Shown one piece after another: positions 10,901 to 63,446 of a stretch of DNA of 64,000 bases. The DNA is from Alphaproteobacteria bacterium (GTDB taxonomy: Bacteria; Pseudomonadota; Alphaproteobacteria; Rs-D84). The first letter of the stretch is position 1. Every line of letters begins with the position of its first letter. Under the pieces are notes generated by a model. It saw nothing but the letters and a program-made list of their open reading frames with translations, ran no database searches and was not told the origin of the DNA. The position numbers were made by a program, and so were the translations under genes. The stretch spans positions 248,736-312,735 of the forward strand of contig WRCC01000002.1 of NCBI GenBank assembly GCA_009784235.1, written 5' to 3'.

Positions 10901-10903
10901 GAA

Positions 10904-33849: not shown

Positions 33850-34158
33850 TTACTTTATTACCGCTTTTTTGATTATGGTTATGTCTTCTTTGATGACATC
33901 CAGTCGCAGCTGTAATTGCGCAATTCCGGATTCCAGATTCGCGGTGCGGTTTTCCAAAATGGTTGTTCGCGCATCTATGCTGCGAACGTTATCCATATTG
34001 GAATCGTGCCGCGCGACCCAGTAAATCGCGGTTCCAATAAAAACGATTAAAAACCAAGAATTGCGCAGCATGTCGATAATCGGTGTCGCCGTCGTATGAT
34101 GTGCAGGACCGTGCATTGTGGTCGCGCCACCATCGGCCAGTTTTATCTTTTTATTCAT
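33850..34158 (-). CDS. Phage-type small membrane/coiled-coil protein
   Basis: One TM (NSWFLIVFIGTAIYWVA) followed by coiled coil SIDARTTILENRTANLESGIAQLQLRLDVIKEDI; end of phage-like gene run. Confidence 0.45.
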   Translation of the reverse strand: MNKKIKLADGGATTMHGPAHHTTATPIIDMLRNSWFLIVFIGTAIYWVARHDSNMDNVRSIDARTTILENRTANLESGIAQLQLRLDVIKEDITIIKKAVIK

Positions 34159-34348
34159 GCTTTCCCCTTTTGATTAATGCTTCGATTTTATGGACTAATG
34201 CGCGCTGGCCTTCCAGTGTTCGCAGGGCACTGTCGCTGGCGTCCGGGCCCAAAAATCGTTCTATGGTAATTTCGCGCAAATGTGCGATAACGCGTTTTCC
34301 GTCCGTTGTGCCGAACACTCGGGCGTATGATTGTTCAATGTTTTTCAT
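34151..34348 (-). CDS. Bbp19-like phage protein
   Basis: ARVFGTTDGKRVIAHLREITIERFLGPDASDSALRTLEGQRALVHKIEALI. Confidence 0.55.
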   Translation of the reverse strand: MKNIEQSYARVFGTTDGKRVIAHLREITIERFLGPDASDSALRTLEGQRALVHKIEALIKRGKHE

Positions 34349-34788
34349 TTGATAATTCCTTTTCTGTAACCTTCGTGCTTTGCGATTGCGGCGGCCAATT
34401 TTTGTAATGCGACCGGTGACAATGTCATCATTGGCGTATTGCGCGGAATTCCCGTTTCGCGTTCAATAAAATTTATGTAAGCACCAGTGTCGTTTTCAAT
34501 CGGCGGCGCATATCGATTAATGGCATCGCCCAGATTTAATTTCTGATAATTAGGCGTGCGAAGCAGGGCGCACAGCGCAGCAAACCCAGTATCATAATCC
34601 GGAAATACTGCAAACCCGCCGGCCACGCCGATTGCGCCACGCGCATTTGTGAATGCCCCATTTCGAATGTTGCCTGGATTATTATTACGCCACGCCCGCG
34701 TCCCGCCCGACCAGATTTCGCGCCCGCCACACGGTTTTTCATATATAACATCCGTGCCATTCCCGGCATATGCTTTTACGTATTTCAT
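34345..34788 (-). CDS. Phage virion/lysozyme-like protein
   Basis: WRNNNPGNIRNGAFTNARGAIGVAGGFAVFPDYDTGFAALCALL (NNPGNIR motif of virion-associated hydrolases). Confidence 0.65.
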   Translation of the reverse strand: MKYVKAYAGNGTDVIYEKPCGGREIWSGGTRAWRNNNPGNIRNGAFTNARGAIGVAGGFAVFPDYDTGFAALCALLRTPNYQKLNLGDAINRYAPPIENDTGAYINFIERETGIPRNTPMMTLSPVALQKLAAAIAKHEGYRKGIIK

Positions 34789-34837: not shown

Positions 34838-36211
34838 CTATTGTGAAATTAATTCTGATGGAATATGCAATGCGGTGGCCAAGTAATTCATGACCGCATT
34901 ATGATTAACGTTGTTTGCAAACCCGGCATTGTTCGCTGTGCTCAGGAATGATAACACCGCTGTCGCGCGTTCATCCGCGGCCAATTGCGCAATTGGCGCA
35001 ACATACGCAAGGCGCGCATCATTATGCAGCGATATTGGGTCAATAATTCCACGGCGTGCCAAAATCGCCAATCCGCGCGATACCAGCGGCCGAATAAGTT
35101 CGCCCAGCAATCGTCCGTATGTCGCGCCCAGAACGCGCATCATATCGGTATTTCGTGCAATGATTTCTGTTGCGGTCATTTCTTTGTCAGACAAAATCGA
35201 CAACCGGTCGGCCAGCAATGCGTGACGGATACGTGCACGTAAATCACCCAATACCAATTGCGACACATCGAAATCCGCACCGCTGCGCAGTGGTGTCAGG
35301 CCGCTTGAACCGACCGCTTTCGGTATAATCGCGCCGGGGGTCAGGTTGATGTTAGACAGATTGATAACACCATCGTCATCTGCTTGCCAAATGCCGGATA
35401 CTGCGATGGTTGCGTTTTTCAGGACCAGTTCGACAACCTTGTTCGCGGTCTTGATATCAGGCAATGCGCGCAGGACGGGCGATCGGCCGTATGATTCCCC
35501 GGCCGCGGCGGACCAGCGGAAAATGATATATGGGCATTGGTCGAATTTGCCGGTTGCAACGATGTTGTTTTCGATTTCGCCGCCGCAGTCTATCCAGGCT
35601 GTGAACGTCCATGTGTCTGTATCGTTGATAACACTCTGTACCAATCTCAATTGCATTTCAGGATTTTGTTTTATGGAATCGCGCATTGCGGCCGGTGGCG
35701 TCCACGCAGGATACTTTTCCATTAAATCAATGGCCGGCATTGATGTTGTATGAAACACCGCGGTTAAATCGCCACCGGCGCCTCTCAAGACCGAAATATC
35801 ATTCATCGGAATCGCAGTAAAATTAAAAGCGCTTTCCGTACCAATTGGATTTTCGGCGAAAAACAAACATGCCGTTCCCAATATCGTCATATCCAAATAG
35901 CATTGATGAATCGTCGTATAAAAATTAGAATCGTTCAGATGATTGCGCAACGCATCCGTTGTAAATTCCGGATCGGGTGAAAATTCAGTTGCGCGCGATA
36001 ATGAAATCCATCCGGATTCCGGCGGGGTCAGCAATGAAAACATATTTGCTGCCAATAAATCCACGGCGTCCCCGGCCGTTGCATCAAACAGTAACGATGT
36101 ATCGTCGTCGTTAGCGGGCATCGTATAGCGTTGGCACTGTGCCCATCTGCGTGTCCATGCGTCCCGCCCGGCCAGCGATTGTTTATAAAGAGATATGATT
36201 TTTTCCGTCAT
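34838..36211 (-). CDS. Podovirus head-tail connector (portal) protein
   Basis: MTEKIISLYKQSLAGRDAWTRRWAQCQRYTMPANDD...DAVDLLAANMFSLLTPPESGWISL...ESYGRSPVLRALPDIKTANKVVEL...SDKEMTATEIIARNTDMMRVLGATYGRLLGELIRPLVSRGLAIL. Confidence 0.88.
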   Translation of the reverse strand: MTEKIISLYKQSLAGRDAWTRRWAQCQRYTMPANDDDTSLLFDATAGDAVDLLAANMFSLLTPPESGWISLSRATEFSPDPEFTTDALRNHLNDSNFYTTIHQCYLDMTILGTACLFFAENPIGTESAFNFTAIPMNDISVLRGAGGDLTAVFHTTSMPAIDLMEKYPAWTPPAAMRDSIKQNPEMQLRLVQSVINDTDTWTFTAWIDCGGEIENNIVATGKFDQCPYIIFRWSAAAGESYGRSPVLRALPDIKTANKVVELVLKNATIAVSGIWQADDDGVINLSNINLTPGAIIPKAVGSSGLTPLRSGADFDVSQLVLGDLRARIRHALLADRLSILSDKEMTATEIIARNTDMMRVLGATYGRLLGELIRPLVSRGLAILARRGIIDPISLHNDARLAYVAPIAQLAADERATAVLSFLSTANNAGFANNVNHNAVMNYLATALHIPSELISQ

Positions 36212-36942: not shown

Positions 36943-37767
36943 TTACACCTTGAAATCGGTTGTGGCGGACAGTGGCAAAAACATCTGGCCGCGAGGTCGC
37001 ACGGCGATTGGCTGTATTCTCAGCGCGCCGGCAATCGCATCCAGTCCGTCGTCGCGGTTTGCGCCCGCGGCCGGCAACCAATCTTCAAATTCAGTAATAA
37101 TTTTCGACCGGCGAATTCGTTCATGCGCAAATAATCGTCCGGTTGCCAATAATGGTTCAATTGCGTCCAAGATTCGGTGTTCTTTGTTTTCTTTATTTAT
37201 TATTTTCTGGATAACCAACGGTTGTTTGCATGCCATTGCCGCGCCACGCAATATTTCCGGCAAAGCGTTTCCAATCCCGTTGACTTCAATTGCGATATGG
37301 CGCTGGTCATATTTTGTCAAAAAATCCAAAACACGGCCACATTGCGTTGCAAATGGATGCAAGTCATCGTCACCAGTCGCCAAGTATTTTACATCGTGAA
37401 TAAACGCGCGCCGATTTTTATCATCGCGAAATATTATAACGCATACGGATGAATCCGCACCATCGCGGGCAGACGATGGGTCCCAGTAACATGCAACACC
37501 AGTGATTGGAAAATCGCCGGAAATCTTTGCATTCCGTGCATCAAATTCGCCGGAATAAAATTGCAATGCACCTGGGTCCAGTCGTGCGCGGTCGGCGGAT
37601 ACGAATTCCAGCATCATTTGTGCAGAAAAGTGTCGTGGTCCAACGGTTTCACGCAATTCGTCTATCTTTTCAATCGGAAATAGTGTGGGCCATGCCGATT
37701 CACCGTCCGGCCCGATAATCGGAATATGCAGTGTGCGATATCCGCGCAAAAATGGTTCATTATTCAT
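36943..37767 (-). CDS. Terminase large subunit, C-terminal (nuclease) half as a separate ORF
   Basis: LRGYRTLHIPIIGPDGESAWPTLFPIEKIDELRETVGPRHFSAQMMLEFVSADRARLDPGAL...CYWDPSSARDGADSSVCVIIFRD...IAIEVNGIGNALPEIL...RDDGLDAIAGAL. Confidence 0.85.
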   Translation of the reverse strand: MNNEPFLRGYRTLHIPIIGPDGESAWPTLFPIEKIDELRETVGPRHFSAQMMLEFVSADRARLDPGALQFYSGEFDARNAKISGDFPITGVACYWDPSSARDGADSSVCVIIFRDDKNRRAFIHDVKYLATGDDDLHPFATQCGRVLDFLTKYDQRHIAIEVNGIGNALPEILRGAAMACKQPLVIQKIINKENKEHRILDAIEPLLATGRLFAHERIRRSKIITEFEDWLPAAGANRDDGLDAIAGALRIQPIAVRPRGQMFLPLSATTDFKV

Positions 37768-40129: not shown

Positions 40130-40942
40130 ATGAATATAAAAGCTGTTATTTTTCTGACCATTGCTGCGATTTTTTGCGCCGGTATTTCGTTCGCGGATAC
40201 AGACAATACAAATCTGGAAGCAACGCCACCCAAAAATCCGGACGACTGGGTATTCAAAGCGCACGCCGGCATAATGGGCTTCTATATGCCGAAATACGAA
40301 GGTTCGGATTTATATCAGCCATTATATATGCCGGAAATCGATTTATCATATGGGCCATTATTCGCATCGATTTCCCAGGGCGCCGGCATATTTATTCCAC
40401 TGAATGAATCGCGCAGCTTTATCGTTGCACCCGCAATCCGCTGGCGCGTAAAACGAAACCTGGCCAACGAAGCACGTGACGCGATTGAATACATCGGCGA
40501 TGTTCGTCCAACTGTGACGCTGAATACAATTTATCGCACCGGCCCGTTGATGTTTAATTTCAGAATGACCGAAGGTTTGTCGGACAGCAACACTGGCGCG
40601 TCATTTAATTTGGGCGCAACGTTTCGCGATGATGTGACCGACCGCATAAATTTGACCGTTTATACGACCGCGATATACGGCGACCGGCGATATAATCAGA
40701 CTTATTTTGGAATTACACCGGTCGAATCCATTGAATTTGGATTTCCGGAACATGCGTCCCGTGCCGGCCTTAAAAGTTTGGACATCGGCGGTTTGTTTAG
40801 ATATTTCATCACCGACCACAAAAATATATCCGCAGATTTTATGTTTGAATATATGCGCCTGGTCGGTCCGGCTGCCAAATCGCCAATAACACTGAACAAA
40901 GACCAGTTTTTATTCGGCGTGGGGGCAAGTTATTATTTTTAA
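40130..40942 (+). CDS. MipA/OmpV family outer-membrane protein
   Basis: Signal peptide; HAGIMGFYMPKYEGSDLYQPLYMPEIDLSYGPLFASISQGAGIFI...; ends GVGASYYF. Confidence 0.75.
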   Translation: MNIKAVIFLTIAAIFCAGISFADTDNTNLEATPPKNPDDWVFKAHAGIMGFYMPKYEGSDLYQPLYMPEIDLSYGPLFASISQGAGIFIPLNESRSFIVAPAIRWRVKRNLANEARDAIEYIGDVRPTVTLNTIYRTGPLMFNFRMTEGLSDSNTGASFNLGATFRDDVTDRINLTVYTTAIYGDRRYNQTYFGITPVESIEFGFPEHASRAGLKSLDIGGLFRYFITDHKNISADFMFEYMRLVGPAAKSPITLNKDQFLFGVGASYYF

Positions 40943-41634
40943 CGGGATAAAAATCTTTTCATATATGTCAGTAATTCATCCGCATTGGTAACAGACCGGT
41001 CCAATGGATTTCCAAGTTTTCGAAACTTTTTCGCCCGTTTGAATGCATCAAGCTCACTTCCTTTTTCCTGCAAATCTTGCAAGTTGAATCGTTTGCCCTT
41101 GCCATTCTTGTTTTTATTATCTGGGTCGTATGCTTCACCAAGACAATCCGGGTGCTGTAATTCTTTGCGAAGTTTTCTTTTATCCAACGCCGGACAGTTG
41201 GTATCCTTGAAATGTAAAAGTCCCCAGTAATCAAAAGACCGATTTGAATAAATGCAATTTATTTTTTCGGGGTCAACATCGCCGTCGACAGGCAAATTGC
41301 AATTGGCAATAACATTTTTTATTTTGCCTTTGTTCTTTGCGGTTCTGTCGTCTTCATCAATCATTATAAACATGCACGCGTTCGGGAAAATGGTTTTCTG
41401 CTTCAAAGCATCGTTATATACGGAATTCGGGTCAGTTCCGGTTTCCCATGGAATTATTTCAATTTGTTTCCGCTTCGGGCTTCGAATCTGGTCCAGCCAA
41501 GCCTCAAGATATTCCTTTTCCGTAACCGACCCTTCTGTGACGACACATATTTGTACATTATTACGATGCTGGGCCTGTTTTCGTTGTACTAATTGTTGAC
41601 GGCTATTATTCGGAAACGATTTTCTTTTTGCCAT
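40939..41634 (-). CDS. rloB: RloB family protein
   Basis: QICVVTEGSVTEKEYLEAWLDQIR...CMFIMIDEDDRTAKNKGK...IYSNRSFDYWGLLHF. Confidence 0.75.
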   Translation of the reverse strand: MAKRKSFPNNSRQQLVQRKQAQHRNNVQICVVTEGSVTEKEYLEAWLDQIRSPKRKQIEIIPWETGTDPNSVYNDALKQKTIFPNACMFIMIDEDDRTAKNKGKIKNVIANCNLPVDGDVDPEKINCIYSNRSFDYWGLLHFKDTNCPALDKRKLRKELQHPDCLGEAYDPDNKNKNGKGKRFNLQDLQEKGSELDAFKRAKKFRKLGNPLDRSVTNADELLTYMKRFLSR

Positions 41635-42961
41635 TTTCGTCCCCCATTTGTATTGATTGCAGCTTGTCTATATTCCCCAAGAATGGTATTCCGCCGAATT
41701 TACCCTGCAGATATCCTTTGGAATAATCGTACCCTTTGCGGATATCATTGAATATGGATAATGGGTATGCGTCCGATATGCCCGTGTTTCCATCTTTTTC
41801 AACAAACCATATTTCATCGCGCCGCAAATTTTCAGGAATCATAATACTGACATCATGGGTTGTAAATATCAATTGGGCGCCCGCTTTGTTTATCCTACTG
41901 TTGTGGAATAGCTTTATCAAGTCTTGCAACAGGATGGAATGCAGATGACTTGGCTCATCTATAACAAACAGTCCGCCGTTCACAAAAGCTGGTAAAAACT
42001 GCATCAGAAAATTTAGGTATTGTGTTGTTCCTCTGCTTTCTTGGCTTGGGTGCAGCAGGAAATCATCTTTACCATCGCAATTATGTTTGAATTCATAGTG
42101 ATATTCTACATTTGTATCTCCGTCAAGGCCGGCTTTCGTGAGTTCAAATTCTATATCTTCGCTAAATTCGCCAAAAAGTCTTTTAAGTTTGGCTTCAAAA
42201 TCTAGGATTTTATCGTCTTTTTTGCTTTCTATCTTTTTAGTTTCTATATCGCATATTCCAATGTCAGCGTATTTAAGCAAATCTACAACTTTTTGTTTAA
42301 GTTCTGCGTCATTATGTAAAACTTTTCCAATGTTCATATAATCTTCATTTGGACCGCCAAGATTATCAAAGAATTTATATACATTGTTAAAAGGTTCGAT
42401 TTCCCTGATTCGTAATATTTCCAGTGCCAAAACGTCTTGACGCGTGGATATATGGTCATTAATTTCATTTTTTACAATTTCGGAAATTCGTGGGTCCGCA
42501 GAGCTAAACTTAGTGGGAATTCTTTCAAAAATAACTTTTTCCTTGCCCGATACTGTTGGGTAATAGAATAATTTCTCTGAAAGTATTGCAGTGTTGTCAT
42601 GAGATATGGCATAGCAATATCTATCGTCATTCAATATGAATTCTATTTCTGCATTGCTCGGCTGATTTTTTGAAAGCGCAAAAGGACGATAAGGCATTTT
42701 CGGAGATTTTTTGTCTTTTCTGTTCAACAGGGAACTAAAACATTTGAAAGCCTGTAAAAGGTTCGATTTTCCCGAAGCATTGGCGCCGTAAAAAACAGTC
42801 ACGGGCAATATTTTTTCGCCGCCAAGCGTTTTTGATTCAATCAAATTCCAAGAACTTTTTTCAGACGAATATTTATCTTCCGCTGTAAAAAATACTTCGG
42901 TTTCATTTTTGAAAGAGTAAAAATTTGAAAATTTTATTCTGCGGATATTTGCTTTTTTCAT
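41606..42961 (-). CDS. AAA ATP-binding protein (RloA/AbiEii-like partner of RloB)
   Basis: FKNETEVFFTA...VFYGANASGKSNLLQAF...GLFVIDEPSHLHSILLQDLIKLFH...AQLIFTTHDVSIM. Confidence 0.85.
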   Translation of the reverse strand: MKKANIRRIKFSNFYSFKNETEVFFTAEDKYSSEKSSWNLIESKTLGGEKILPVTVFYGANASGKSNLLQAFKCFSSLLNRKDKKSPKMPYRPFALSKNQPSNAEIEFILNDDRYCYAISHDNTAILSEKLFYYPTVSGKEKVIFERIPTKFSSADPRISEIVKNEINDHISTRQDVLALEILRIREIEPFNNVYKFFDNLGGPNEDYMNIGKVLHNDAELKQKVVDLLKYADIGICDIETKKIESKKDDKILDFEAKLKRLFGEFSEDIEFELTKAGLDGDTNVEYHYEFKHNCDGKDDFLLHPSQESRGTTQYLNFLMQFLPAFVNGGLFVIDEPSHLHSILLQDLIKLFHNSRINKAGAQLIFTTHDVSIMIPENLRRDEIWFVEKDGNTGISDAYPLSIFNDIRKGYDYSKGYLQGKFGGIPFLGNIDKLQSIQMGDENGKKKIVSE

Positions 42962-49861: not shown

Positions 49862-50602
49862 TCAAAATAAACTCAAATTACCACGCTTGAATTCTGGAAA
49901 CTGTTTGTATGTTTTTCCGTCCAAGATTGGTGCGGGCATATTGCCAGAACATCCATGTTCACTATATTGTTTAAACCAAAATGAAACTTTTTGTTCCAAA
50001 GTCCAATCGCGCACTTCTCGTATCCAATCAACGTTAACCGGTCTGGCATTCTGGCCTGATTCACCGCCCACAATCAACCAATCTATATTGGTCAAATCTA
50101 GCCTTTCAATTCGGTCCAATAGTGGTTCAAGCGATAAATATTTCATCACAGCAGGCACAGCTTTTAAATCATCCAATCGATTACGATATTTATTACTTTC
50201 AATTGTAACGCCGGCAACAATATTAGGCAGCCATTCCAAAAATGGTGCTAATTCGCGCATGCGATGCGACCGCTTGGTCAATATCGTATAAATATGCCAA
50301 TCCGCACGCTTCATAATGGCAAAAACTTTTTGAATGTATTCCAGTGGTATATCGTCGTGAAATAAATCACACATGGAATCGACGAATATCAGTCGCGGCT
50401 TTTTCCAGTGGAGCGGAATTTCCAGTCGTTCTGGCCGCAAAGTTAACTTGAATCCATTTTCATAACCGGCGATACCTTGGTTACATAGGCGTTCTGCAAT
50501 TGGCATCGCATAACAATTTTTGCATCCATCGCTATATTTTGTGCACCCGACAATTGGATTCCAGGTTGCATCCGTCCATTCAAGATTTGATTTTTGTGAC
50601 AT
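49862..50602 (-). CDS. DUF5131 / phage Gp37-Gp68-like three-Cys-motif protein
   Basis: IEWTDATWNPIVGCTKYSDGCKNCYAMPIAERL-type motif (LEWTDATWNPIVGCTKYSDGCKNCYA); IVGGESGQNARPVNVDWIREVRDWTLEQKVSFWFKQYSE. Confidence 0.85.
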   Translation of the reverse strand: MSQKSNLEWTDATWNPIVGCTKYSDGCKNCYAMPIAERLCNQGIAGYENGFKLTLRPERLEIPLHWKKPRLIFVDSMCDLFHDDIPLEYIQKVFAIMKRADWHIYTILTKRSHRMRELAPFLEWLPNIVAGVTIESNKYRNRLDDLKAVPAVMKYLSLEPLLDRIERLDLTNIDWLIVGGESGQNARPVNVDWIREVRDWTLEQKVSFWFKQYSEHGCSGNMPAPILDGKTYKQFPEFKRGNLSLF

Positions 50603-50637
50603 AGTAAAATCTTAGGCTATTTGTGCGATTTTCGCAA

Positions 50638-51495
50638 TTAAAATAAACTTTGCTGACCATATATCGCATTACATTTTGCAGAATAGCATAAAATATCATC
50701 TTTATAGTTTGCATGATTTTTTAATATGTTTTGCAATTTGCTGGCGCGCTGATGGTCGCGCACTATAAATATTAAATAATGGCTAGTTTTTAATGATATT
50801 TCTATTTGGAATTTAAAGGGAATAATATGACAATTACCAATGTCACCGGTCAAAGATTTTACATAAGTATCAAGTATGAAACGTTCATTTTTATATCCAG
50901 GATTCATCCGGCAGAATTCACGAATTTTTGCTAATGTTTTTGCATCAAACAAATCGTCGAAAAGTCCGCAAACAGCATCAAAATCCTTGAATCTATGAAA
51001 TTGATTAAAACTGAACAAGAGAACTATTTCACAATTAGGATTTCGCAACAACTCTCGCACATAGCTTCTATTCATGCCTTTCCAACCAAATGGGTCAAGA
51101 AATACGAAACTATGAGCATTATTTGGTATTTTTGGTCGCAGGTTACTAGTTGAGTTGTCGTGTGCAGATGTCGTTACAGATTTAATATATTTGAAATTTA
51201 GGATATTTGAAGTCGCATGGCGTAATTTCGCCATGTATTCAATATTATTATCATTTAAAACGATACAAAATTTTTGCGCCAACTTTCGGTCGGCGCAAAT
51301 TTCTTGAAGAACGCAAATGGGCGTGGATAAAGTTCCATCATCATAAACACCTGGTCCGGCGAATAAATCAATATAAAATAGGCTTTGTTGGATACGTACA
51401 CTGCTTAACCACAATTTAAATGATTGAAGAACGATTTTCATTTTAACTTCGGAATTAGCAGACTGCTCTACAAAGAAACTCGAATTGTTGTTCAT
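50638..51495 (-). CDS. tcmP: Three-Cys-motif partner protein TcmP
   Basis: YIDLFAGPGVYDDGTLSTPICVLQEI...SFVFLDPFGWKGMNRSYVRELLRNPNCEIVLLFSFNQFHRF; adjacent to DUF5131. Confidence 0.78.
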   Translation of the reverse strand: MNNNSSFFVEQSANSEVKMKIVLQSFKLWLSSVRIQQSLFYIDLFAGPGVYDDGTLSTPICVLQEICADRKLAQKFCIVLNDNNIEYMAKLRHATSNILNFKYIKSVTTSAHDNSTSNLRPKIPNNAHSFVFLDPFGWKGMNRSYVRELLRNPNCEIVLLFSFNQFHRFKDFDAVCGLFDDLFDAKTLAKIREFCRMNPGYKNERFILDTYVKSLTGDIGNCHIIPFKFQIEISLKTSHYLIFIVRDHQRASKLQNILKNHANYKDDILCYSAKCNAIYGQQSLF

Positions 51496-51636
51496 AATAA
51501 AAACTTTTGATATAAAAAAATTTCTGCACAGGAATGACAAATAAAAATGACCATCGCCTTTTTTTACTTGCCTTTGGCAATAATTTTCCCTAAGATTCTG
51601 TCAAGATTTCAAATTCTAAACCCAAGGGGTGTCATC

Positions 51637-52656
51637 ATGGCGTGGGAAGAAGTAATATTTCCAAATAACATTCGTAATATCCGTCTGTCGCGCGGTATGA
51701 AAATGACCGCGGTTGCACGGCAAGCTGGGCTGTCGCTGTCCGCAATGTCAAAGGTTGAAAAAGGCGTCCGCCGCTTGAATCAAAAGCAATTATTGACCCT
51801 GTGCGGAATTTTGGATTGCAAATTATCCGATATATTTATCAAAGAATCCGACCAATCGGCCGGATATTGGGAATCGGAAATGACACGTCGTTTGTCTGAT
51901 AATGAAAATTCTGGCTTGAAAATTTTCGGTACCGGCGTGCGTACATTGCGCCGCAAGATTGGCAAAACAATTGCGAATGCAGCCAAAGACGCAAAGATGA
52001 CATTGTCGGTATATCATAAAATCGAAGTTGGTCAACGCGAAGTATATGAAGATGAAATTGAAAATCTGGCGCATGCACTTGGACTGAATGCCGAATCTAT
52101 GTTCAAGGCAATTGCTGAATTGTTTGAATCTGGCGCGCTGACGAAACAAATTTCAAAGGTCGAAGAAAAAGCGCGCGCCGTCTTGACACCGAATAATCCG
52201 GCGGCCGGGCTCAGCATGCATGGCGCATTGTATGGTTCGAAAATTTATGATTCTGCGCGTAAAAAATTGGTACCGGTATTTGGAACGCCGGGCGATAAAA
52301 ATATTGTATTTAAAAAATCCGACGAAAAAATGATTGTTATGCCAATGAACCTGGAAGGGGAATCAGGCATATACGCGGTCATCCCGAATATTCGCCGGAT
52401 GGGTGTGATGTTTCCGAACCGGTCTTATCTGTTTGTGAATCCAGACGTGGTTCCACAACCGGGCGATTTGGCGATTGCGTTGGATGAAGACTTTGAAAAA
52501 TTGGAACCAGATACCAAAACGCATGCACGCATTGTTATGGTTGGTGAAGATGCCAAAGGCAATCTATACGGCCACATGGTTGCGCCGGATGAAAAAATCC
52601 CGGTTAAAAATACTGGCGGGCGTCTTCATAAAGTTGTTCAGATAGTTATTGAATAA
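51637..52656 (+). CDS. Tandem-HTH XRE regulator with S24/LexA-like C-terminal region
   Basis: IRNIRLSRGMKMTAVARQAGLSLSAMSKVEKGVRRLNQKQLLTLCGIL; second HTH LRRKIGKTIANAAKDAKMTLSVYHKIEVGQREV; C-terminal FPNRSYLFVNPDVVPQPGDLAIALDED...GNLYGHMV. Confidence 0.75.
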   Translation: MAWEEVIFPNNIRNIRLSRGMKMTAVARQAGLSLSAMSKVEKGVRRLNQKQLLTLCGILDCKLSDIFIKESDQSAGYWESEMTRRLSDNENSGLKIFGTGVRTLRRKIGKTIANAAKDAKMTLSVYHKIEVGQREVYEDEIENLAHALGLNAESMFKAIAELFESGALTKQISKVEEKARAVLTPNNPAAGLSMHGALYGSKIYDSARKKLVPVFGTPGDKNIVFKKSDEKMIVMPMNLEGESGIYAVIPNIRRMGVMFPNRSYLFVNPDVVPQPGDLAIALDEDFEKLEPDTKTHARIVMVGEDAKGNLYGHMVAPDEKIPVKNTGGRLHKVVQIVIE

Positions 52657-52708
52657 GATTTGTGGGGGCGGAAAATTTTCTGCCCGTACAGATTTCTTGG
52701 AGAGAGAG

Positions 52709-53359
52709 ATGAGAGAATCAAATTCCAAAACGGCACAGCGCCTTATGAACCTGTATCGCCAAGCACATGTGATAAACGGCGGATGGGTGGCGGTTAATGC
52801 CGTATTTATTGCCGAAGCCACTGCGCCGGTTTTGGAAGAATTAAAAAAATTACCGACCGGCGGTCGATTGGTAACGCATATTGAAAATTTAAAGCGCGGG
52901 CGAACCGCGGCGAATTCAATTGCGCGTGATTTGATGCCATATGGTGGCATTATGGAATCCGCACCAATGGATAATGATGATATCCCAACCGGAATTTCCG
53001 AAACCGATTTTGCATCAATTGAACGTGCGCTGGATAATTTCCAGCCGAACCAAGAAAGCCTGGATGCCATAAAATCATTGCCTGCCATCCAACAATTCGC
53101 TGACCGTTGGTTGGTCGGAATTCGTGCAACAATTGCTGGGCGGGCGGATTTGCTGGATAAATGGCGTGTGGTTTATAATGCGGACCGGGCGTTTTCGCTG
53201 TGGTCGCGTGCAAGTGATATTTTATCATGGACACCGACGGAACGCATGCGTGCCGAAGTCCAGGCTGATTTACCCGAATACGAATCATATCTGCCGATGT
53301 TCGGCGATGCAGGCAAAGAACTTTTGGGCAAACTTCGCGCATATGTCAGCAGTGTGTAA
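52709..53359 (+). CDS. Hypothetical protein
   Basis: Intact ORF with GGAGAGAGAG SD; no family recognised; adjacent to regulator. Confidence 0.5.
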   Translation: MRESNSKTAQRLMNLYRQAHVINGGWVAVNAVFIAEATAPVLEELKKLPTGGRLVTHIENLKRGRTAANSIARDLMPYGGIMESAPMDNDDIPTGISETDFASIERALDNFQPNQESLDAIKSLPAIQQFADRWLVGIRATIAGRADLLDKWRVVYNADRAFSLWSRASDILSWTPTERMRAEVQADLPEYESYLPMFGDAGKELLGKLRAYVSSV

Positions 53360-53360
53360 A

Positions 53361-53391
53361 AAAACAAAACCGCCATCAGGCGGTTTTATAA
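53361..53391. terminator. Hairpin shared by convergent ends of the 52709 gene and terminase N-half
   Basis: aaaaaCAAAACCGCCATCAGGCGGTTTTataaat; the TerL-N stop codon lies inside the hairpin. Confidence 0.7.
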
Positions 53392-53978
53392 ATAGTATCC
53401 TTTGTATGCGGTGTTCCGATATATATCATTGTGCCGTTGGGTGACAGAATAAAATCCAGTTCACGCAAACGTTCGCGTAATCGTTCACGCTTTTTCGCAG
53501 TGTTGCAAGTATTCGGAACTTCGACGTCATCGCATATAATCAAATCCGACCGCATGCCGGTGATATTTCCATTAATACCTTGGCAAATTACCGATGGTTC
53601 GCGGATACCCGGCGGCCGATTAATGGTTAATTTATGCGACCCCCATTCTTTTTTAACCGTTGGCAACATATCACGACACATTGGGTGGTTTTCCAGAATA
53701 TGTTTGATATGCGATACCATTCGCGATGCCAGGTTTGTTTCAGCCGATAAAATCAGAATTCGAGTATTCGGATTTTCACACAATTGCCATGCGGCAAACA
53801 CGCCGACCACGGTTGATTTCCCAGAATGCCGAAATGCGGTCAATAAAGCCCGACGCGGCGCATCACGCGCCCCTCCAATTAAAAAATTCAAAATTTTTTT
53901 ATGATGCACCGGTGTCGTTAAACCGATAAGTTCATTCCACGCGTCCAAGAACGCCGCGGCAAAATCAGAGCGTGCCAT
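53376..53978 (-). CDS. Terminase large subunit, N-terminal (ATPase) half as a separate ORF
   Basis: RRALLTAFRHSGKSTVVGVFAAWQLCENPNTRILILSAETNLASRMVSHIK...MRSDLIICDDVEVPNTCNTAKKRERLRERLRELDFILSPNGTMIYIGTPHTKDTIYKTA. Confidence 0.87.
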   Translation of the reverse strand: MARSDFAAAFLDAWNELIGLTTPVHHKKILNFLIGGARDAPRRALLTAFRHSGKSTVVGVFAAWQLCENPNTRILILSAETNLASRMVSHIKHILENHPMCRDMLPTVKKEWGSHKLTINRPPGIREPSVICQGINGNITGMRSDLIICDDVEVPNTCNTAKKRERLRERLRELDFILSPNGTMIYIGTPHTKDTIYKTA

Positions 53979-54507
53979 AATCATCCATATTGGCCGCATC
54001 ATCTGTGATTGAACCATAATCAGTTGCTGCATTTTGGATATATGCCGACAAAACAGATAACAGATTATTATATAATCCAATCGTTCCGCCGCCGCTGGTT
54101 TTATCTTCGATAAGCATCCGCGTATAATGAATTACGCCCAGTACTTTGTCATGAACATTCTGCCATGCCGCCATATCTGTATCAATTTGGTTTATATCGC
54201 GCAATGCTTCGACCAAGAAATTGAAATCTGCGTTCAGTTGTTCTGGGTCTATTTTCGCGGTTGGTTGGTAATCGATAAACCGCGATAATTCGATTTTGCG
54301 AAATACATCAACAGTTGTGCCAGTATCCGGTGCATTCATCAAAACGACAGTTCCGCCTTTCATTGATTCATTCGGCAATACGTTATATAAATGCAAATCG
54401 ACCAATTCGTTATCAATTGCAATCTTGATATCCGCATGCTGAAAAAATGGAAAATCGAATGCAAATTCTGTCTGTGCGCCATCGGCAGCATATGAAATTT
54501 TATGCAT
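53965..54507 (-). CDS. Podovirus tail-fibre N-terminal-domain-like protein
   Basis: ISYAADGAQTEFAFDFPFFQHADIKIAIDNELVDLHLYNVLPNESMKGGTVVLMNAPDTGTTVDVFRKIELSRFIDYQPTAKIDPEQLNADFNFLVEALRDI (T7 gp17-like N-domain). Confidence 0.72.
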   Translation of the reverse strand: MHKISYAADGAQTEFAFDFPFFQHADIKIAIDNELVDLHLYNVLPNESMKGGTVVLMNAPDTGTTVDVFRKIELSRFIDYQPTAKIDPEQLNADFNFLVEALRDINQIDTDMAAWQNVHDKVLGVIHYTRMLIEDKTSGGGTIGLYNNLLSVLSAYIQNAATDYGSITDDAANMDDYGTL

Positions 54508-54511
54508 ATCA

Positions 54512-54862
54512 TCACCCCATTATTTTTGTGAATTCACCCGCCAAAGATTTCAATAAATTTGTTTTCTTTGGTTTTTTCAATTTAGCCAGCCGGTCCTGGT
54601 TGGATTTGCGTTTGGTATCAAACGGCGTTTCTTCTTCTTCGCGAATGCGTTTCAATACGGCTTCTTCGGTCATTCCGCGTCCGGTCATGCCAGATGCACC
54701 GTAAATTGCGCGTTGACGGGCAAGCGCTTTTTTGACCAAGTTTGTTTTCGCGGCTTCATCGCTTGCCATCTGGTCCAATATTTTTCGCCGTTCGGTTTTT
54801 ATTTCTTTTCCGGCGGCCCGATTTTTGATGATTCCATCTACTTCGTTCACAAGTTGTCCCAT
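54512..54862 (-). CDS. Small charged phage-type protein
   Basis: Intact 116-aa ORF between tail genes; KILDQMASDEAAKTNLVKKALARQRAIYGASGMTGRGMTEEAVLKRIREEE. Confidence 0.5.
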   Translation of the reverse strand: MGQLVNEVDGIIKNRAAGKEIKTERRKILDQMASDEAAKTNLVKKALARQRAIYGASGMTGRGMTEEAVLKRIREEEETPFDTKRKSNQDRLAKLKKPKKTNLLKSLAGEFTKIMG

Positions 54863-54874
54863 GATTTTCTCCTT

Positions 54875-56614
54875 TTATATAGAGTATCTGCCTTCGGCAG
54901 TAATTGATAATATGGTTGCGGGCAGGGGCTCGCTGCTGGTTATTGTCCATAATGGCTGGATAGTGTCCGTGGCGGTTCCCAAAAGATTTATGGAAACGTC
55001 GCCTGTGAAACCATTCGAATCTGGCGCATGTACATTGTTCGGTAATGGCGCGCGTAACATCCGTCCATCCATTCGAAAGAACAATGATTTTGTATCCATC
55101 AATCGCGCGGATATTTTGGTCAATCGTAGTTTTTTCGGATTATGTCCGGATGCGAATATCGGCATACCGGATGCGGTAAATGAAAATCCATATCCGCCCG
55201 AATCATTTGGCACGCTGTCTGAAAACTTTTCAACGAATGTTCCGATATCGCGATTCACTGCGACGAATACTTCGCCATTCATTACCGCAACGGATTTGAA
55301 ATCGCCCATCGTTCGATATACGGCCCATGCGGATACTGACGTTGCGGCGATTCGCGTCAAAACGGCCATCGACCCATCGGCCATTACAACAAACAATCGG
55401 CATGAACGGTCGTGATAAGCGATATCAACCGGCGTCTTCATAATATGTTTCGACAAAGCGCACAAATCAACTGCATCATACGTTTCACCAATTTGGTCCA
55501 AGACTAATTCGCGAATTTCTGAATCGTTTTTGGATACGAACGCGGTGCTGCCTTCGATTTTTTGCGGCTGCAGGTATCTGTCGCTGCGCGAACCAACCGA
55601 TGTATGTTGTTTGATATTTATTGTTGATGGCGTTAATGGTTTGCTGGAAATTGCCCATTCGCCTGCGGTTGTTAATATCTGTAAATTATCAGACGATGCA
55701 ACAGTGCATATTTGTTGCCGCGTGGATGATAGTAGCGTAAGAAAGATTGCCTCGTCATCCAATCCAGTGCCGACATCAAAGTTTTTATGGTCGCCGACTT
55801 TGGACATCCAGACGCCGCATGGCCAATCACGCGCGCCGCCGAAAACCAATCGGTCTTGGTGGAACGTGATGCTGGTCGGCCATCCGCGTCGCGCGGAAAA
55901 TGCGGTTTCGCGCCAATCTGAAATTGGGCCATTTGGCAAAGTATGTCCAGCGTTTGTTTGGGCGGTAACTATGGTCGAACTGGTTACCCCGGTAATCAGC
56001 CATTGCCGGTCGCCAACCATCAGTCGGTGTCCGATGTTCGCAGATGTCCAGAATGGTGTGGATGCAGTAATGGTCGCAAAATTATTTCCGTTTGGATGCG
56101 ATGTTAAGGTTAATTTGATATTGGCCGCATCATCGAATTTTATAAATGGTATTAATCGGTTTCCGTTTGCATCCGCGGAAAATTCAAAATCATACAATGT
56201 GAATGAACCATCTGGATTTTTCTGCAATATTTGTGGCGCATGATTCGGATGTGTAAAAATCATCGTGCCGAATCGCTGGGCATATTGTACGCCACGAATT
56301 TCATCACTGTTCCACGGCGTTAATATATCATCGACCAACTTATCATCTTTATAAATTTCAATACGTCTGGTCGATAATATCAGCATATAATTGTCATCAT
56401 CGCTGACCAACATTGGCACAATCATCGCATCCGGGCGTGTTTCAAACAAACGAATTGTTCCGGGCCGGCGACGTAATCCACCGCCTGGCAATACATCCAT
56501 GTTTTCCAATTTTGACAATCCGCGTGACGCGGCGGCTATGTCTGACCGGGCGAAAAATTCGGACGATATTTCACCAAGTGCAAAAGAATTTTGGGTGTTT
56601 ATAAATTTTCCCAT
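54875..56614 (-). CDS. Tail tubular protein B-like / tail nozzle protein
   Basis: NSFALGEISSEFFARSDIAAASRGLSKLENMDVLPGGGLRRRPGTIRL...YMLILSTRRIEIYKDDKLVDDI...VGDHKNFDVGTGLDDEAIFLTLLSSTRQQICTVASSDNLQILTTAGEWAI. Confidence 0.83.
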   Translation of the reverse strand: MGKFINTQNSFALGEISSEFFARSDIAAASRGLSKLENMDVLPGGGLRRRPGTIRLFETRPDAMIVPMLVSDDDNYMLILSTRRIEIYKDDKLVDDILTPWNSDEIRGVQYAQRFGTMIFTHPNHAPQILQKNPDGSFTLYDFEFSADANGNRLIPFIKFDDAANIKLTLTSHPNGNNFATITASTPFWTSANIGHRLMVGDRQWLITGVTSSTIVTAQTNAGHTLPNGPISDWRETAFSARRGWPTSITFHQDRLVFGGARDWPCGVWMSKVGDHKNFDVGTGLDDEAIFLTLLSSTRQQICTVASSDNLQILTTAGEWAISSKPLTPSTINIKQHTSVGSRSDRYLQPQKIEGSTAFVSKNDSEIRELVLDQIGETYDAVDLCALSKHIMKTPVDIAYHDRSCRLFVVMADGSMAVLTRIAATSVSAWAVYRTMGDFKSVAVMNGEVFVAVNRDIGTFVEKFSDSVPNDSGGYGFSFTASGMPIFASGHNPKKLRLTKISARLMDTKSLFFRMDGRMLRAPLPNNVHAPDSNGFTGDVSINLLGTATDTIQPLWTITSSEPLPATILSITAEGRYSI

Positions 56615-56626
56615 GGTATTTCCCCT

Positions 56627-57154
56627 TTAAAACCGTGCGCTGATTAATGAAAAATCTGCAACGCTTGTGGATGATGCCATCGTGCTGTCGATGAATTTTG
56701 CCGCGCGTAATTCAGAATCGTACAACGCTGCCAAAGTATTAAAGCAATTCTGGTTATCAGTCAGCGGCATACAAAATTCCATTGCCAGTTTCGTCGCAGC
56801 CAAAGATGAAAAAAACGCGGGATAGCTTTCGGAAACAATACGAATAACTGCAATGACTGTAATTTTGTCGTGCTTTGAAAGTATTCGATTGCCATTAATT
56901 TCATAATCGCGCGCATCGCACGATAATACCCGCAATACTTCAACAGGCAGCAAGAAATCATTGTCATCAGTCCGAACCAATTCGCATTTTTTTGTCGCGA
57001 ATTTCCATGGATGGGCGGCCAGCATGGAATCGGTGACATTTTCGAACAAAGTTCGCGCCAACTGGGCCGGCGCCGTATCTTCATTGAACGATTGAATTGG
57101 CTTTTCCCCAATTTTCAGCAATGCCATCGAACATAAATCTATTTTTGTAATCAT
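56627..57154 (-). CDS. Tail tubular protein A-like adaptor
   Basis: MITKIDLCSMALLKIGEKPIQSFNEDTAPAQLARTLFENVTDSMLAAHPWKFATKKCELV. Confidence 0.83.
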   Translation of the reverse strand: MITKIDLCSMALLKIGEKPIQSFNEDTAPAQLARTLFENVTDSMLAAHPWKFATKKCELVRTDDNDFLLPVEVLRVLSCDARDYEINGNRILSKHDKITVIAVIRIVSESYPAFFSSLAATKLAMEFCMPLTDNQNCFNTLAALYDSELRAAKFIDSTMASSTSVADFSLISARF

Positions 57155-57166
57155 AATGAATCCTTT

Positions 57167-57397
57167 TTATAAAATCGCGCCAATTGTGACATTCGCGTCG
57201 GTTGCGATAACGGCGCGCAGCGCGGCCCCGTCCGCCGCGTTTATAATTATTATGTCGCCAATGTTCATCAGCGTTTTAACGCTGTTGAAATATCCGCATC
57301 GTTGTATGTCGCCAGCGGCTGCATTTTCCGCGTAATGCCACAGAGTGAATCCGTTCGCATAAGCGATTACGGACAGGTTTTTATTTGCGAATGCCAT
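57167..57397 (-). CDS. Small virion-cluster protein
   Basis: MAFANKNLSVIAYANGFTLWHYAENAAAGDIQRCGYFN... between capsid and tail genes. Confidence 0.55.
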   Translation of the reverse strand: MAFANKNLSVIAYANGFTLWHYAENAAAGDIQRCGYFNSVKTLMNIGDIIIINAADGAALRAVIATDANVTIGAIL

Positions 57398-57413: not shown

Positions 57414-57486
57414 TTAGTCCATAGTCGAAAGTCCATAGTAAAAAGTAAAAATTACTATGGACTAATGACTGTGGACTTTTTACTTA
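57414..57486. repeat. Stuttering palindrome of AGTCCATAG/CTATGGACT units
   Basis: tagtccatagtcgaaagtccatagtaaaaagtaaaaattactatggactaatgactgtggactttttacttac. Confidence 0.7.
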
Positions 57487-58293
57487 CTTTGTGCACTTGA
57501 TGCGAACGATGCCCGATGCGTCGATTAATGCCGCGCCTTGGGACATGCTGTTGCAGACAAAGTGTGCGGCGCGTTCGCCGGACCATGATATGTCTGTTTT
57601 GACATCTTGTCCGACCGCATGACCGATGGCGGATGCATGATAAACAAAGCAGTCGCGTCCGGTATCGGATGGCAATGCGTTATGCAGAACCCAATTGATG
57701 CCAAGCCAACGTTTTACTTCGAATCCGCCAATCATGGTACCTTCGCCGACATAATCAGACGATGTGAATTCCGGCATGGACAGCAATGCGTTCCATTGAT
57801 TTACGCCAACAACCGCGAATCTGCGGCCATCGTCTGGGATATCGTTGGTGTTCAGAATCGCGACCGCATTCAGTATCAGTTCTTTGGAAAGTGCCGCATT
57901 GTATGCACCGACTTCCAACGTTGCACCCGACATCGCATCAATAATCAATTCGTCCGTCTTGCGGCCCAGCGCGTATGCACCGGCCGACGCAACGACGCGA
58001 CGTTCATCGATGTTGATTTTCAGTTCATCGAGTGCATCGACCCAATCGCCGGCATAATAATCCGCCAATTGGCATTCGACCGCGGTGTGGGCCAGATTCA
58101 TGACTGGCACCAAATCGTGACGTGCTTTGGTTCCGGCTGCGCCGCGACCGACCTTTTGGAATACGGTGCTGGCACCGACCACGCCGTTTTTCGAACGGAT
58201 GGTGCTGCGCAACTTTGTGCCCGTCTGTTGGTACGCTAAATGAACATCAGCTTCGAACTGTTTTACAAATGCTTCTGTAATAGACATAGACAT
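57484..58293 (-). CDS. Major capsid protein
   Basis: MSMSITEAFVKQFEADVHLAYQQTGTKLRSTIRSKNGVVGASTVFQKVGRGAAGTKARHDLVPVMNLAHTAVECQLADYYAGDWVDALDELKINIDERRVVASAGAYALGRKTDELIIDAM. Confidence 0.85.
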   Translation of the reverse strand: MSMSITEAFVKQFEADVHLAYQQTGTKLRSTIRSKNGVVGASTVFQKVGRGAAGTKARHDLVPVMNLAHTAVECQLADYYAGDWVDALDELKINIDERRVVASAGAYALGRKTDELIIDAMSGATLEVGAYNAALSKELILNAVAILNTNDIPDDGRRFAVVGVNQWNALLSMPEFTSSDYVGEGTMIGGFEVKRWLGINWVLHNALPSDTGRDCFVYHASAIGHAVGQDVKTDISWSGERAAHFVCNSMSQGAALIDASGIVRIKCTK

Positions 58294-58454: not shown

Positions 58455-58482
58455 AAAAAACGCCCCGAAAGGGGCGTTTTTT
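58455..58482 (-). terminator. Intrinsic terminator
   Basis: aaaaaaCGCCCCGAAAGGGGCGtttttt. Confidence 0.85.
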
Positions 58483-58494
58483 CAAAAGAAACAA

Positions 58495-59004
58495 TTATTT
58501 CTTTTTCGCAACCGGTTTTTTCGCCGGGGCTTTTTTCACAGCTGGTTTTTTTGCAACTGGCTTTTTGACGGTCGGTTTTTTCACAGCTGGTTTTTTAACT
58601 GCAACTTTTTTGACAACCGGTTTTTTCACGGCTGGCTTTTTGACGGCTGGTTTTTTAACCGCAACTTTTTTCACAGCTGGCTTTTTCGCTGGGGCTTTTT
58701 TGACGGCCGGTTTTTTTGCAACCGGTTTTTTCGCCATCGGAACGCGGCATGCCAATTTCGCAACTTTCTTTACAACTTTTTTCGCCGGGGCTTTTTTTGC
58801 AACTGGTTTTTTAACAGCTGGCTTTTTCGCAACGACTTTTTTCGGCGCTGCTTTTTTCACGACCGGTTTTTTTACCGCTGGCTTTTTGACGGCTGGTTTT
58901 TTCACAGCCGGCTTTTTCGCAACCGGTTTTTTTGCCGCCGGTTTCGCAGCCGGTTTTGGGGCTGGCTTCTTCGGGGCTGGTTTTTTCAAGAATGAAAATG
59001 CCAT
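58495..59004 (-). CDS. Histone H1-like Lys/Ala/Pro/Val repeat protein
   Basis: MAFSFLKKPAPKKPAPKPAAKPAAKKPVAKKPAVKKPAVKK... KKPAVKK pentads throughout; AAAGGAGAGAAG SD. Confidence 0.75.
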   Translation of the reverse strand: MAFSFLKKPAPKKPAPKPAAKPAAKKPVAKKPAVKKPAVKKPAVKKPVVKKAAPKKVVAKKPAVKKPVAKKAPAKKVVKKVAKLACRVPMAKKPVAKKPAVKKAPAKKPAVKKVAVKKPAVKKPAVKKPVVKKVAVKKPAVKKPTVKKPVAKKPAVKKAPAKKPVAKKK

Positions 59005-59093
59005 TCTTCTCTCCTTTTTTGTTTTCCATAGAACAAAAGTTTTTTGTTCTTGATTTAATTTTATCTGAAAGAGAAAAAATAAACAAGCGAATT

Positions 59094-59747
59094 TTACGAA
59101 TAAAGTTTTTTAAATCCATTTTCAATTTTACGAATGTATTCTTCATCATTGTCTCTCCAATATTTTGGGTCGCGCATCATATCGCGCAAATTTTTTTCTG
59201 TGATTGCATCAGATGTGCCGCCGCCAATCTGAACGGATGGTTCCATTGATTGCATCATTGCGTAAATGCTGCGGATTCCTGCGGGTGACGCGCATAATGA
59301 TTCATAAGTATCGCGCGGCAGAAATTTTTCACCGAACATATCGATGGCCGATAAAGCATCGCGCATTTTATCTTCACCGCCGAAAAAAGTTTTTAATTCA
59401 GCGATTGATTCGTTTTCATATTGCGATTTAAATATTTCAGACAGCGCCGGATGCAAAAAATCATTTGCGATGTCGTAAATTTTTTCAACTTGCGATGCGT
59501 TTAACCCGGCGTCCAGAAATTTCGCACGAATCGAATCATCATCGTACAGCGGGTGCGCCGGATATTCAGCCATATCCGTCGGTACGCCAATTGCGCGGCG
59601 AAATTTATCACGCGTCGTATCATCCGTGCTATCCGTTGGCACAGATACCATCGTTCCGATTTTCTTTTCCAATTCCGAATATGATTTTAACAAAGAATCG
59701 GTATTCAGCGTTCCGTCGTTATTTTGAAATTTTTGTGGGATGTCCAT
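59094..59747 (-). CDS. Capsid assembly scaffold-like protein
   Basis: MDIPQKFQNNDGTLNTDSLLKSYSELEKKIGTMVSVPTDSTDDTTRDKFRRAIGVPTDMAEYPAHPLYDDDSIRAKFLDAGLNASQVEKIYDIANDFLHPAL. Confidence 0.75.
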   Translation of the reverse strand: MDIPQKFQNNDGTLNTDSLLKSYSELEKKIGTMVSVPTDSTDDTTRDKFRRAIGVPTDMAEYPAHPLYDDDSIRAKFLDAGLNASQVEKIYDIANDFLHPALSEIFKSQYENESIAELKTFFGGEDKMRDALSAIDMFGEKFLPRDTYESLCASPAGIRSIYAMMQSMEPSVQIGGGTSDAITEKNLRDMMRDPKYWRDNDEEYIRKIENGFKKLYS

Positions 59748-59932
59748 CAGTTCTCCTTTTTAATTCCGTTGCGCAGAAAGAAAATCCCGCCCAAGGTGAA
59801 TATTGCGTGCATCGTTAAAAATAAATCTGTATCGCCAACAATGTATGCCGCGACCGCAGAAATGATTCCAGCGCCAGATAATATGTAAGTACGGCGTCCG
59901 GCCATCCATCCGCCGTTTAAAATTTTGTTCAT
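59747..59932 (-). CDS. Small two-TM holin-like protein
   Basis: YILSGAGIISAVAAYIVGDTDLFLTMHAIFTLGGIFFLRNGIKKEN; next to hydrolase gene. Confidence 0.5.
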   Translation of the reverse strand: MNKILNGGWMAGRRTYILSGAGIISAVAAYIVGDTDLFLTMHAIFTLGGIFFLRNGIKKEN

Positions 59933-60960: not shown

Positions 60961-61036
60961 TGGTGGATGGTATTGGACTCGAACCAACGACCCCTTCGAT
61001 GTGAACGAAGTGCTCTACCAACTGAGCTAACCATCC
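60961..61036 (-). tRNA. tRNA-Val(CAC)
   Basis: Reverse complement GGATGGTTAGCTCAGTTGGTAGAGCACTTCGTTCACATCGAAGGGGTCGTTGGTTCGAGTCCAATACCATCCACCA. Confidence 0.9.
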
Positions 61037-62598: not shown

Positions 62599-62632
62599 GA
62601 AAAGCAACCATTTGGTTGCTGTTTTTTTATTA
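62599..62632 (+). terminator. Intrinsic terminator
   Basis: AAAAGCAACCATTTGGTTGCTgttttttta. Confidence 0.75.
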
Positions 62633-62690
62633 TTTGTATTCCATGGGCGCATATTTGCGCCCATTTTTTATAACCAAAAAGGAGAATAAA

Positions 62691-63446
62691 ATGGGACAAC
62701 CAACGATAGCACATTTACAAAAGCAAACATTGGCCGCGCAATTCTGTGATATGGTGACGGCGGAATATCCGAACCTTTCCATGACTGACAAATATGAATT
62801 AGCCAGCGCGGTCGCCGCGGCATTCACCGGAATAAATCCAAAAGATATTATTAAAAATCATATTCGCGATAACGCCGGACGGTCGGTTGTTAAAAAAATC
62901 CGCCGTGGCACGCGCGTCCAACATGAAAATTTTACCGGTGCGATGGGCGAAATTACAATGGATACGGATGACAAGACATTGCGCGTGCATGATGGCGAAA
63001 CGCTCGGCGGCACGCCGCTGGCACGCTTGTCAGATATTTCATCTGCGGCTGGTGGCGACAATGAACAAATCGCAGAACAAATTGCCGCGGGTCTTGCCGG
63101 CAAAGCAAACAAAAATTTGGATAACATTGATGGTCATATCGATGTTGTTATTGCGTCGCATCGTGCGACAGATGGCTCTTCATGGTTCCGCCGATATAAA
63201 TCTGGATGGGTGGACCAAGGCGGCATATTCACATCAACCGGGACAAATGCGGCCACAATAACATTACCGGTCGAAATGGCGGACATTAATTACGCGACCC
63301 AGGCAACAATGACCGCGCCTGCGGCCACATGGTCGAACAGAGTATTATGTGTTATCCGAACATCTGCGGCCCAGATTTCAGTACACAATGCAGGCGGTTC
63401 CGGGAATCAAGGTATATGTTGGCAAGTATCCGGCCAGTCCGCATAA
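62691..63446 (+). CDS. Phage tail-fibre/tropism-determinant-like protein
   Basis: GEITMDTDDKTLRVHDGETLGGTPLARLSD (hyaluronidase/Mtd N-domain-like); SSWFRRYKSGWVDQGGIFT; VLCVIRTSAAQISVHNAGGSGNQGICWQVSGQSA. Confidence 0.72.
   Translation: MGQPTIAHLQKQTLAAQFCDMVTAEYPNLSMTDKYELASAVAAAFTGINPKDIIKNHIRDNAGRSVVKKIRRGTRVQHENFTGAMGEITMDTDDKTLRVHDGETLGGTPLARLSDISSAAGGDNEQIAEQIAAGLAGKANKNLDNIDGHIDVVIASHRATDGSSWFRRYKSGWVDQGGIFTSTGTNAATITLPVEMADINYATQATMTAPAATWSNRVLCVIRTSAAQISVHNAGGSGNQGICWQVSGQSA

Follow-up and report, generated by a model that had tools for sequence, protein, structure and literature searches.

A histone H1-like repeat gene predicted to form an autonomous cassette within a vertically inherited, T7-type particle locus of reduced-genome Alphaproteobacteria

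The stretch of DNA analysed here (64 kb, hereafter the window) belongs to an alphaproteobacterium with a 0.87-Mb genome, a member of an order whose genomes measure ∼0.9 Mb. On the minus strand, a cluster of genes runs in the order endolysin-like, holin-like, scaffold, H1-like cassette, capsid, 76-aa protein, tail tubular A, tail tubular B, 116-aa protein, fibre, and terminase ATPase (Table 1). A second module at 33.8–37.8 kb, comprising the portal, the terminase nuclease, and two small genes, lies 16 kb from the cluster within the same window. An earlier note on this DNA had described the H1-like gene as a 169-aa K/A/P/V repeat ORF with a good Shine–Dalgarno (SD) sequence and its own terminator, placed between scaffold-like and capsid genes. 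Each of these observations was borne out: the composition, five-residue units, and coding signal were confirmed, a strong SD precedes the start codon (AAGGAGAGAAGA-ATG), a terminator hairpin follows the ORF, and both neighbors match the corresponding Pfam families.

Table 1. Features of the particle locus and of its surroundings. Positions refer to the window unless a contig is named.
Feature	Position	Strand	Basis or remark
H1-like gene promoter, −35 TTGTTT (59081–59086), 17-nt spacer, −10 TAAAAT (59058–59063)	59058–59086	−	phylogenetic footprint
5′-UTR hairpin/palindrome at predicted transcript start	59031–59049	−	position and folding
H1-like Lys/Ala/Pro/Val repeat protein, 169 aa	58495–59004	−	PF07382 HC2 match, selected frame
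Intrinsic terminator of H1-like gene, between H1-like and capsid genes	58458–58481	−	hairpin
Endolysin-like protein, 145 aa	59929–60366	−	phrog_938, 8.5e-7
Holin-like small membrane protein, 61 aa, conserved in cluster	59747–59932	−	function inferred
T7-type scaffold/capsid assembly protein	59094–59747	−	PF05396, 2.6e-6
Major capsid protein	57484–58293	−	PF19821, 9e-74
Conserved small protein, 76 aa, after capsid	57167–57397	−	phrog_18004
Tail tubular protein A type	56627–57154	−	PF17212, phrog_394
Tail tubular protein B type	54875–56614	−	phrog_376, 1.3e-90
116-aa protein	54512–54862	−	weakly similar to internal virion protein gp14 of T7
Tail-fibre N-terminal domain protein	53965–54507	−	PF03906-like
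Terminase large subunit (TerL), ATPase half only	53376–54080	−	Walker A GKST, Walker B DDVE invariant
TerL, nuclease half	36943–37767	−	T7 RNase-H-like PF22530; D96, E161, D239, D240, D243 conserved
Portal/head-tail connector	34838–36211	−	PF12236
147-aa protein adjoining portal, lysozyme-like look	34345–34788	−	no family match
Small protein, 102 aa, conserved beside portal	33850–34158	−	conservation
276-aa protein near cluster	62616–63446		Major tropism determinant N-terminal domain (PF18454)
tRNA-Val	60961–61036		
Double-HTH regulator and 236-aa protein, between terminase halves	51547–53359		
DUF5131-type-looking protein and three-Cys-motif methyltransferase-like protein	49862–51540		
AAA ATPase and RloB-like gene pair	40939–42961		
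Ribosomal protein S9	10901–11482		N-terminal Lys/Ala/Pro extension
Membrane-type gap proteins of other lineages	L065 10207–10779; L080 8898–9506; L083 10998–11660; L085 8583–9275		

The two halves of TerL form a single ORF in most free-living relatives and are separate genes in the reduced-genome order; in family f1, the host block dnaB-XRE-p236 separates them. Walker A GKS and the DD-E motif are present in 83 of 83 TerL sequences, and the nuclease D/E/D residues in 67 to 68 of 68. The true start of the ATPase-half gene probably lies near 53981. The portal neighbor of 147 residues has a homologue with 62% identity in G020, where it likewise adjoins the portal. No small terminase was found by the searches made, and no integration or replication genes were recognized among the inspected ORFs around both modules. 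The locus is not a broken remnant, the portal and terminase nuclease being intact elsewhere in the window.

Several further genes lie in the vicinity. The PF18454 protein near the cluster is a possible particle receptor-binding protein, and most relatives lack a clear homologue at this position. The double-HTH regulator was discarded as a candidate for the element's own repressor, since nearly every member of the order has it and other families carry it unlinked to the cluster, and tRNA-Val was rejected as an old attachment site, as no tRNA stands at the corresponding border in most relatives checked. Homologues of the methyltransferase-like protein lie inside the particle loci of G007 (scaffold/capsid gap) and G024 (terminase nuclease/portal gap), so that this gene looks like a mobile cassette. 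The AAA ATPase and RloB-like pair, named from appearance, is a probable defence module.

The H1-like protein consists of 64 Lys, 36 Ala, 30 Val, 29 Pro, and 1 Arg, with no acidic residues, and has a computed mass of 17.8 kDa, pI of 11.7, and net charge of +65. Its gene is built from 15-nt units, each encoding five residues; ∼7 residues precede the repeats, the N-terminal motif being MAFSFLK, and the protein ends in KKK. Among relatives, the N terminus keeps its short, hydrophobic character while varying in sequence (MAFSFLK, MSLFSKK, MALFGKK, MFKSIIKK), and net charge ranges from +24 to +66. A run of 60 residues composed solely of K, A, P, and V occurs in no other ORF of the window, the runner-up run being found in the tail at the N terminus of ribosomal protein S9. 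KKPA repeats also end a TatA-like protein encoded elsewhere in this genome (G000:C3), and family f4 has, elsewhere in the genome, a second KKPA-repeat protein with a nonrepetitive N-terminal part (L316 5576–6172, L317 5741–6214). The lineage seems to favor such K/A/P tails.

The H1-like ORF is a real minus-strand coding gene under purifying selection, because differences between pairs of relatives fall mostly at the third codon position (e.g., 7/16/60 at positions 1/2/3), pN/pS is low (0.11–0.24 in its own frame, as compared to lowest values of 0.19–0.37 in antisense frames), and dN/dS between relatives is 0.03 to 0.12, both ratios being read with the caveat that the repeats had to be aligned. 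The antisense strand holds an open ORF of 162 aa. PF07382 (HC2) matches the protein at 2.1e-18 (67.6 bits versus a Pfam cut-off of 40), although this is a low-complexity model whose match is weak evidence of ancestry; scores fall below the NCBIfam cut-offs for Hc2 (NF038052, 39.3 versus 135) and the Burkholderia H1-like family (NF038053, 57.7 versus 80), and no PHROGs family matches. The H1-like gene adds a new member to a class defined by composition. Bacterial HC2/H1-like proteins (PF07382; NF038052, NF038053) likewise have K/A/P-rich repeats, a similarity that is compositional and therefore does not demonstrate common ancestry. Tandem KPAA/KPAV/KPVA units are also held in common with the C-terminal domains of Pseudomonas AlgP and PhaF, which carry KPAA repeats. 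Unlike the H1-like protein, AlgP and PhaF possess a folded N-terminal domain, which in AlgP comprises 124 helical residues ahead of the repeats (PMC9239181).

Predicted control signals, which the earlier note had described only in part, suggest that the gene is an autonomous cassette of promoter, 5′ hairpin, SD, ORF, and terminator. Alignment of the upstream regions of relatives revealed a sigma-70-type promoter (TTTACT-17-TAAAAT) at constant distance to the ATG in nearly all of them, and the promoter is kept in most of 41 relatives, family f4 included. The −35 box is weak in this window, and a generic sigma-70 scan of the window alone neither listed this promoter nor displayed any promoter excess. 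The palindrome upstream of the gene (GAACAAAAAACTTTTGTTC) stands at the predicted transcript start near 59050 and looks like a 5′ RNA hairpin; folding of six relatives gave z scores between −3.8 and −4.9. Column covariation was no better than in shuffles, and the argument for the hairpin is therefore one of folding and position. The same palindrome was rejected as a regulon operator common to the particle genes, since it occurs once in the window, at or below the count expected by chance. Downstream of the gene, 36 of 41 relatives have a terminator-like hairpin. The promoter of family f4 has a 17-nt spacer and ∼39 nt between the −10 box and the ATG; the 5′ hairpin is absent there, and terminators are weak.

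Placement of the cassette is constant in two families. A locus was testable where both the scaffold and capsid neighbors are present, and at 29 of 30 such loci in families f1 and f4 the H1-like gene occupies the gap between them, reading on their strand. Its position, strand, and ∼105-bp distance to the scaffold gene are constant across both families, which suggests selection for linkage. No K-rich ORF was found in the homologous loci of families f2, f3, f5, f6, and f8 or of free-living Alphaproteobacteria, and in lineages without the H1-like gene a membrane-type protein of ∼190 to 230 aa stands in the scaffold–capsid gap. Families f1 and f4 were not resolved as sisters; we favor a cassette that lodged early in the history of the order or was gained twice.

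Individual genomes uncouple the cassette from the particle genes. G003 (98% complete) has lost every particle gene searched for (capsid, portal, both terminase halves) and retains an intact cassette where the locus once stood, with p236 on one side and, on the other, the winged-helix gene that borders the cluster in relatives; this retention could be recent and transient. In G021, a deletion running from terL into the capsid gene spared the cassette. In G028, the cassette is complete, with promoter, hairpin, and terminator around an ORF of 45 aa, and stands on an 8.3-kb contig that carries no particle genes. G013, a congener of G028, presents the opposite case, a particle locus without any K-rich ORF in the gap. 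The assemblies of G003, G021, and G028 are drafts that were probably built from metagenomes. Together, these patterns indicate that association of the H1-like gene with the particle genes is strong but separable in both directions. The co-conservation with capsid that the earlier note had proposed to check holds within families f1 and f4 and breaks down in G003, in G028, and at loci outside these families. Its distribution is not that of a virion protein, which would be expected to depend on the particle genes and to be conserved alongside them.

The locus housing the cassette is a single-copy, T7/podovirus-type particle locus that is vertically inherited across the order. Among 60 related genomes, the capsid gene was detected in 44 and the portal gene in 47, nearly always as one copy each. 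The particle tree (five concatenated proteins) and the recG tree of the same 36 genomes have 24 of 33 splits in common, and in 500 label shuffles the number never exceeded two. Particle genes exhibit dN/dS values mostly of 0.02 to 0.2 (dnaB, 0.02–0.05). An ordinary recent prophage is ruled out by the single copy, host-congruent tree, low dN/dS, and conserved host flanks. Across 385 sampled Alphaproteobacteria, capsid matches fell into a first set, mostly complete and at ∼49 to 78% identity, and a clearly separate second set at 27 to 36%. Among the named carriers are MAGs from termite and ruminant guts as well as Azospirillum, Niveispirillum, Elioraea, Arboricoccus, Oleispirillum, and Rhodovibrio; Niveispirillum irakense, Elioraea tepidiphila, and Azospirillum doebereinerae are culturable, non-pathogenic species that have the locus but no H1-like gene. 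The particle gene set is ancient and inherited, and the whole tiny-genome gut lineage retains it, probably for gene transfer.

Vertical inheritance, single copy, low dN/dS, and intact motor residues are genomic hallmarks of gene transfer agents (GTAs), and by these the locus has the appearance of a podovirus-type GTA, so far undescribed, whose terminase is encoded by two separate genes. It contains the virion and packaging set of a tailed phage (portal, scaffold, capsid, two tail proteins, fibre, split TerL, and endolysin), and it is under purifying selection with intact catalytic residues. No description of it was found in the literature covered here, chiefly open-access papers. Vertically inherited, GTA-like character of the cluster, together with the promoter and 5′ hairpin of the H1-like gene, goes beyond what the earlier note had claimed. 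The locus resembles RcGTA (type I) and BaGTA (type II), which are classified as independent viriform lineages (PMC9662315), in its single-copy particle locus, vertical inheritance, purifying selection, dispersed modules, and lysis genes. It differs from both, BaGTA being compared by description only, in its PF12236 portal, PF05396 scaffold, PF19821 capsid, and T7-type TerL, and in the splitting of TerL in the reduced-genome order. FpGTA of Faecalibacterium likewise has two loci and, in the part of its description available, is claimed as the first podovirus-like GTA by morphology; its host is a Firmicute of a different lineage, and that part of the text does not mention an H1-like gene (PMC12946183). 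The closest named phages are the Pelagibacter phages HTVC010P and Hodr, with capsids at 33 to 43% identity (43% for Hodr, the closest) and T7-type portal and scaffold families in common, but these are 34- to 35-kb phage genomes with many other genes. A 5-kb GenBank record from human faeces labeled “UNVERIFIED Bacteriophage sp.” (L319, MT838907) is a fragment of such a locus, with a capsid at 66% and a portal at 41%, and its DNA may be bacterial. Several IMG/VR “viral” contigs (L184–L188) are likewise pieces of such loci, which seem to have entered virus collections under the label of phages.

What the H1-like protein does can be approached from its composition, its control signals, and the distribution of the cassette. 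We favor, with moderate confidence, an accessory nucleoid-compacting protein of the cell that is lodged in a domesticated T7-type locus, any help to packaging being optional. As predicted from its sequence, the protein would be intrinsically disordered and strongly cationic, its KKPAVKK repeats binding DNA or another polyanion electrostatically; KPAA-type peptides bind DNA in vitro (PMC9239181). The hydrophobic N-terminal tag may anchor the protein to something. Expression from the sigma-70 promoter, strong SD, and terminator would appear constitutive, and the cassette would have become lodged between the scaffold and capsid genes of the domesticated locus, a candidate GTA. The protein would then act in the cell as an accessory compactor next to HU/IHF, possibly aiding DNA packaging without being essential to it. 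Three HU/IHF-family genes are present in this genome, which rules out the H1-like protein as the sole nucleoid protein of the cell. An accessory nucleoid role is favored because the cassette has its own, apparently constitutive promoter, outlives the particle genes, and is absent from other homologous loci. A host nucleoid protein was one of two readings offered by the earlier note, and it is the one that gains here.

The other of these readings, a DNA-compaction factor for packaging, is weakened. Core proteins of some eukaryotic viruses coat or compact packaged DNA, and an H1-like protein associated with the particle might similarly coat or compact the packaged DNA, or condense the chromosome of the producer for efficient headfuls. 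The conserved place and strand in the scaffold–capsid gap at all but one testable locus, the cationic charge kept among relatives, and a packaging motor with (nearly) invariant catalytic residues in both terminase halves are consistent with such a condenser. Orthologues at unrelated loci in most relatives, named in the earlier note as a sign against it, were not found, the gene lying in the gap at nearly every f1 and f4 locus. However, the gene has its own promoter and terminator, G003 keeps the cassette without any searched particle gene, G028 has it on a particle-free contig, and homologous loci of other families and free-living species lack it; on this balance we regard a particle-associated condenser as rather unlikely. 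Doubtful, too, is the broader proposition that the locus represents a working GTA class (T7/podovirus type, two-protein terminase acting in trans) that recruited the H1-like protein as compactor of its packaged DNA.

Less probable again is a protein that, in the manner of AlgP, binds another polyanion (RNA, ribosomes, polyphosphate, or membrane lipid) and does not compact DNA. The repeats of AlgP are similar in composition, and that protein acts on granules of polyphosphate (PMC9239181); K/A/P tails are also found on ribosomal protein S9 and the TatA-like protein of this genome, indicating that the composition is not specific to DNA. Nevertheless, polyphosphate kinase 1 (PF02503) is absent from all searched genomes of the order, this one included, which makes a polyphosphate role unlikely, and the helical N-terminal domain of AlgP is missing from the H1-like protein. 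Finally, a moron or hitch-hiker, that is, a cassette dating from the phage era, kept with the old prophage and affecting fitness in some way that does not involve DNA (e.g., superinfection exclusion), is very improbable, for although an autonomous cassette amid phage genes is the classic moron layout, no phage relative with such a gene was found in PHROGs or in homologous loci outside the order.

More unusual than the H1-like gene itself is its home. This GTA-like locus of T7 type is widespread, and its split TerL provides a natural two-part terminase. Because cassette-only, particle-only, and both-bearing relatives exist, the H1-like cassette offers a clean test of whether cationic H1-like proteins work for the particle or for the cell when they are encoded in phage-derived loci. 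Should the locus prove to be a GTA, it would add a further alphaproteobacterial type to RcGTA and BaGTA, present both in gut symbionts of 0.9 Mb and in the culturable Azospirillum, Niveispirillum, and Elioraea, in which its function would be directly testable, and it would help to explain how gene exchange is kept under strong genome reduction.
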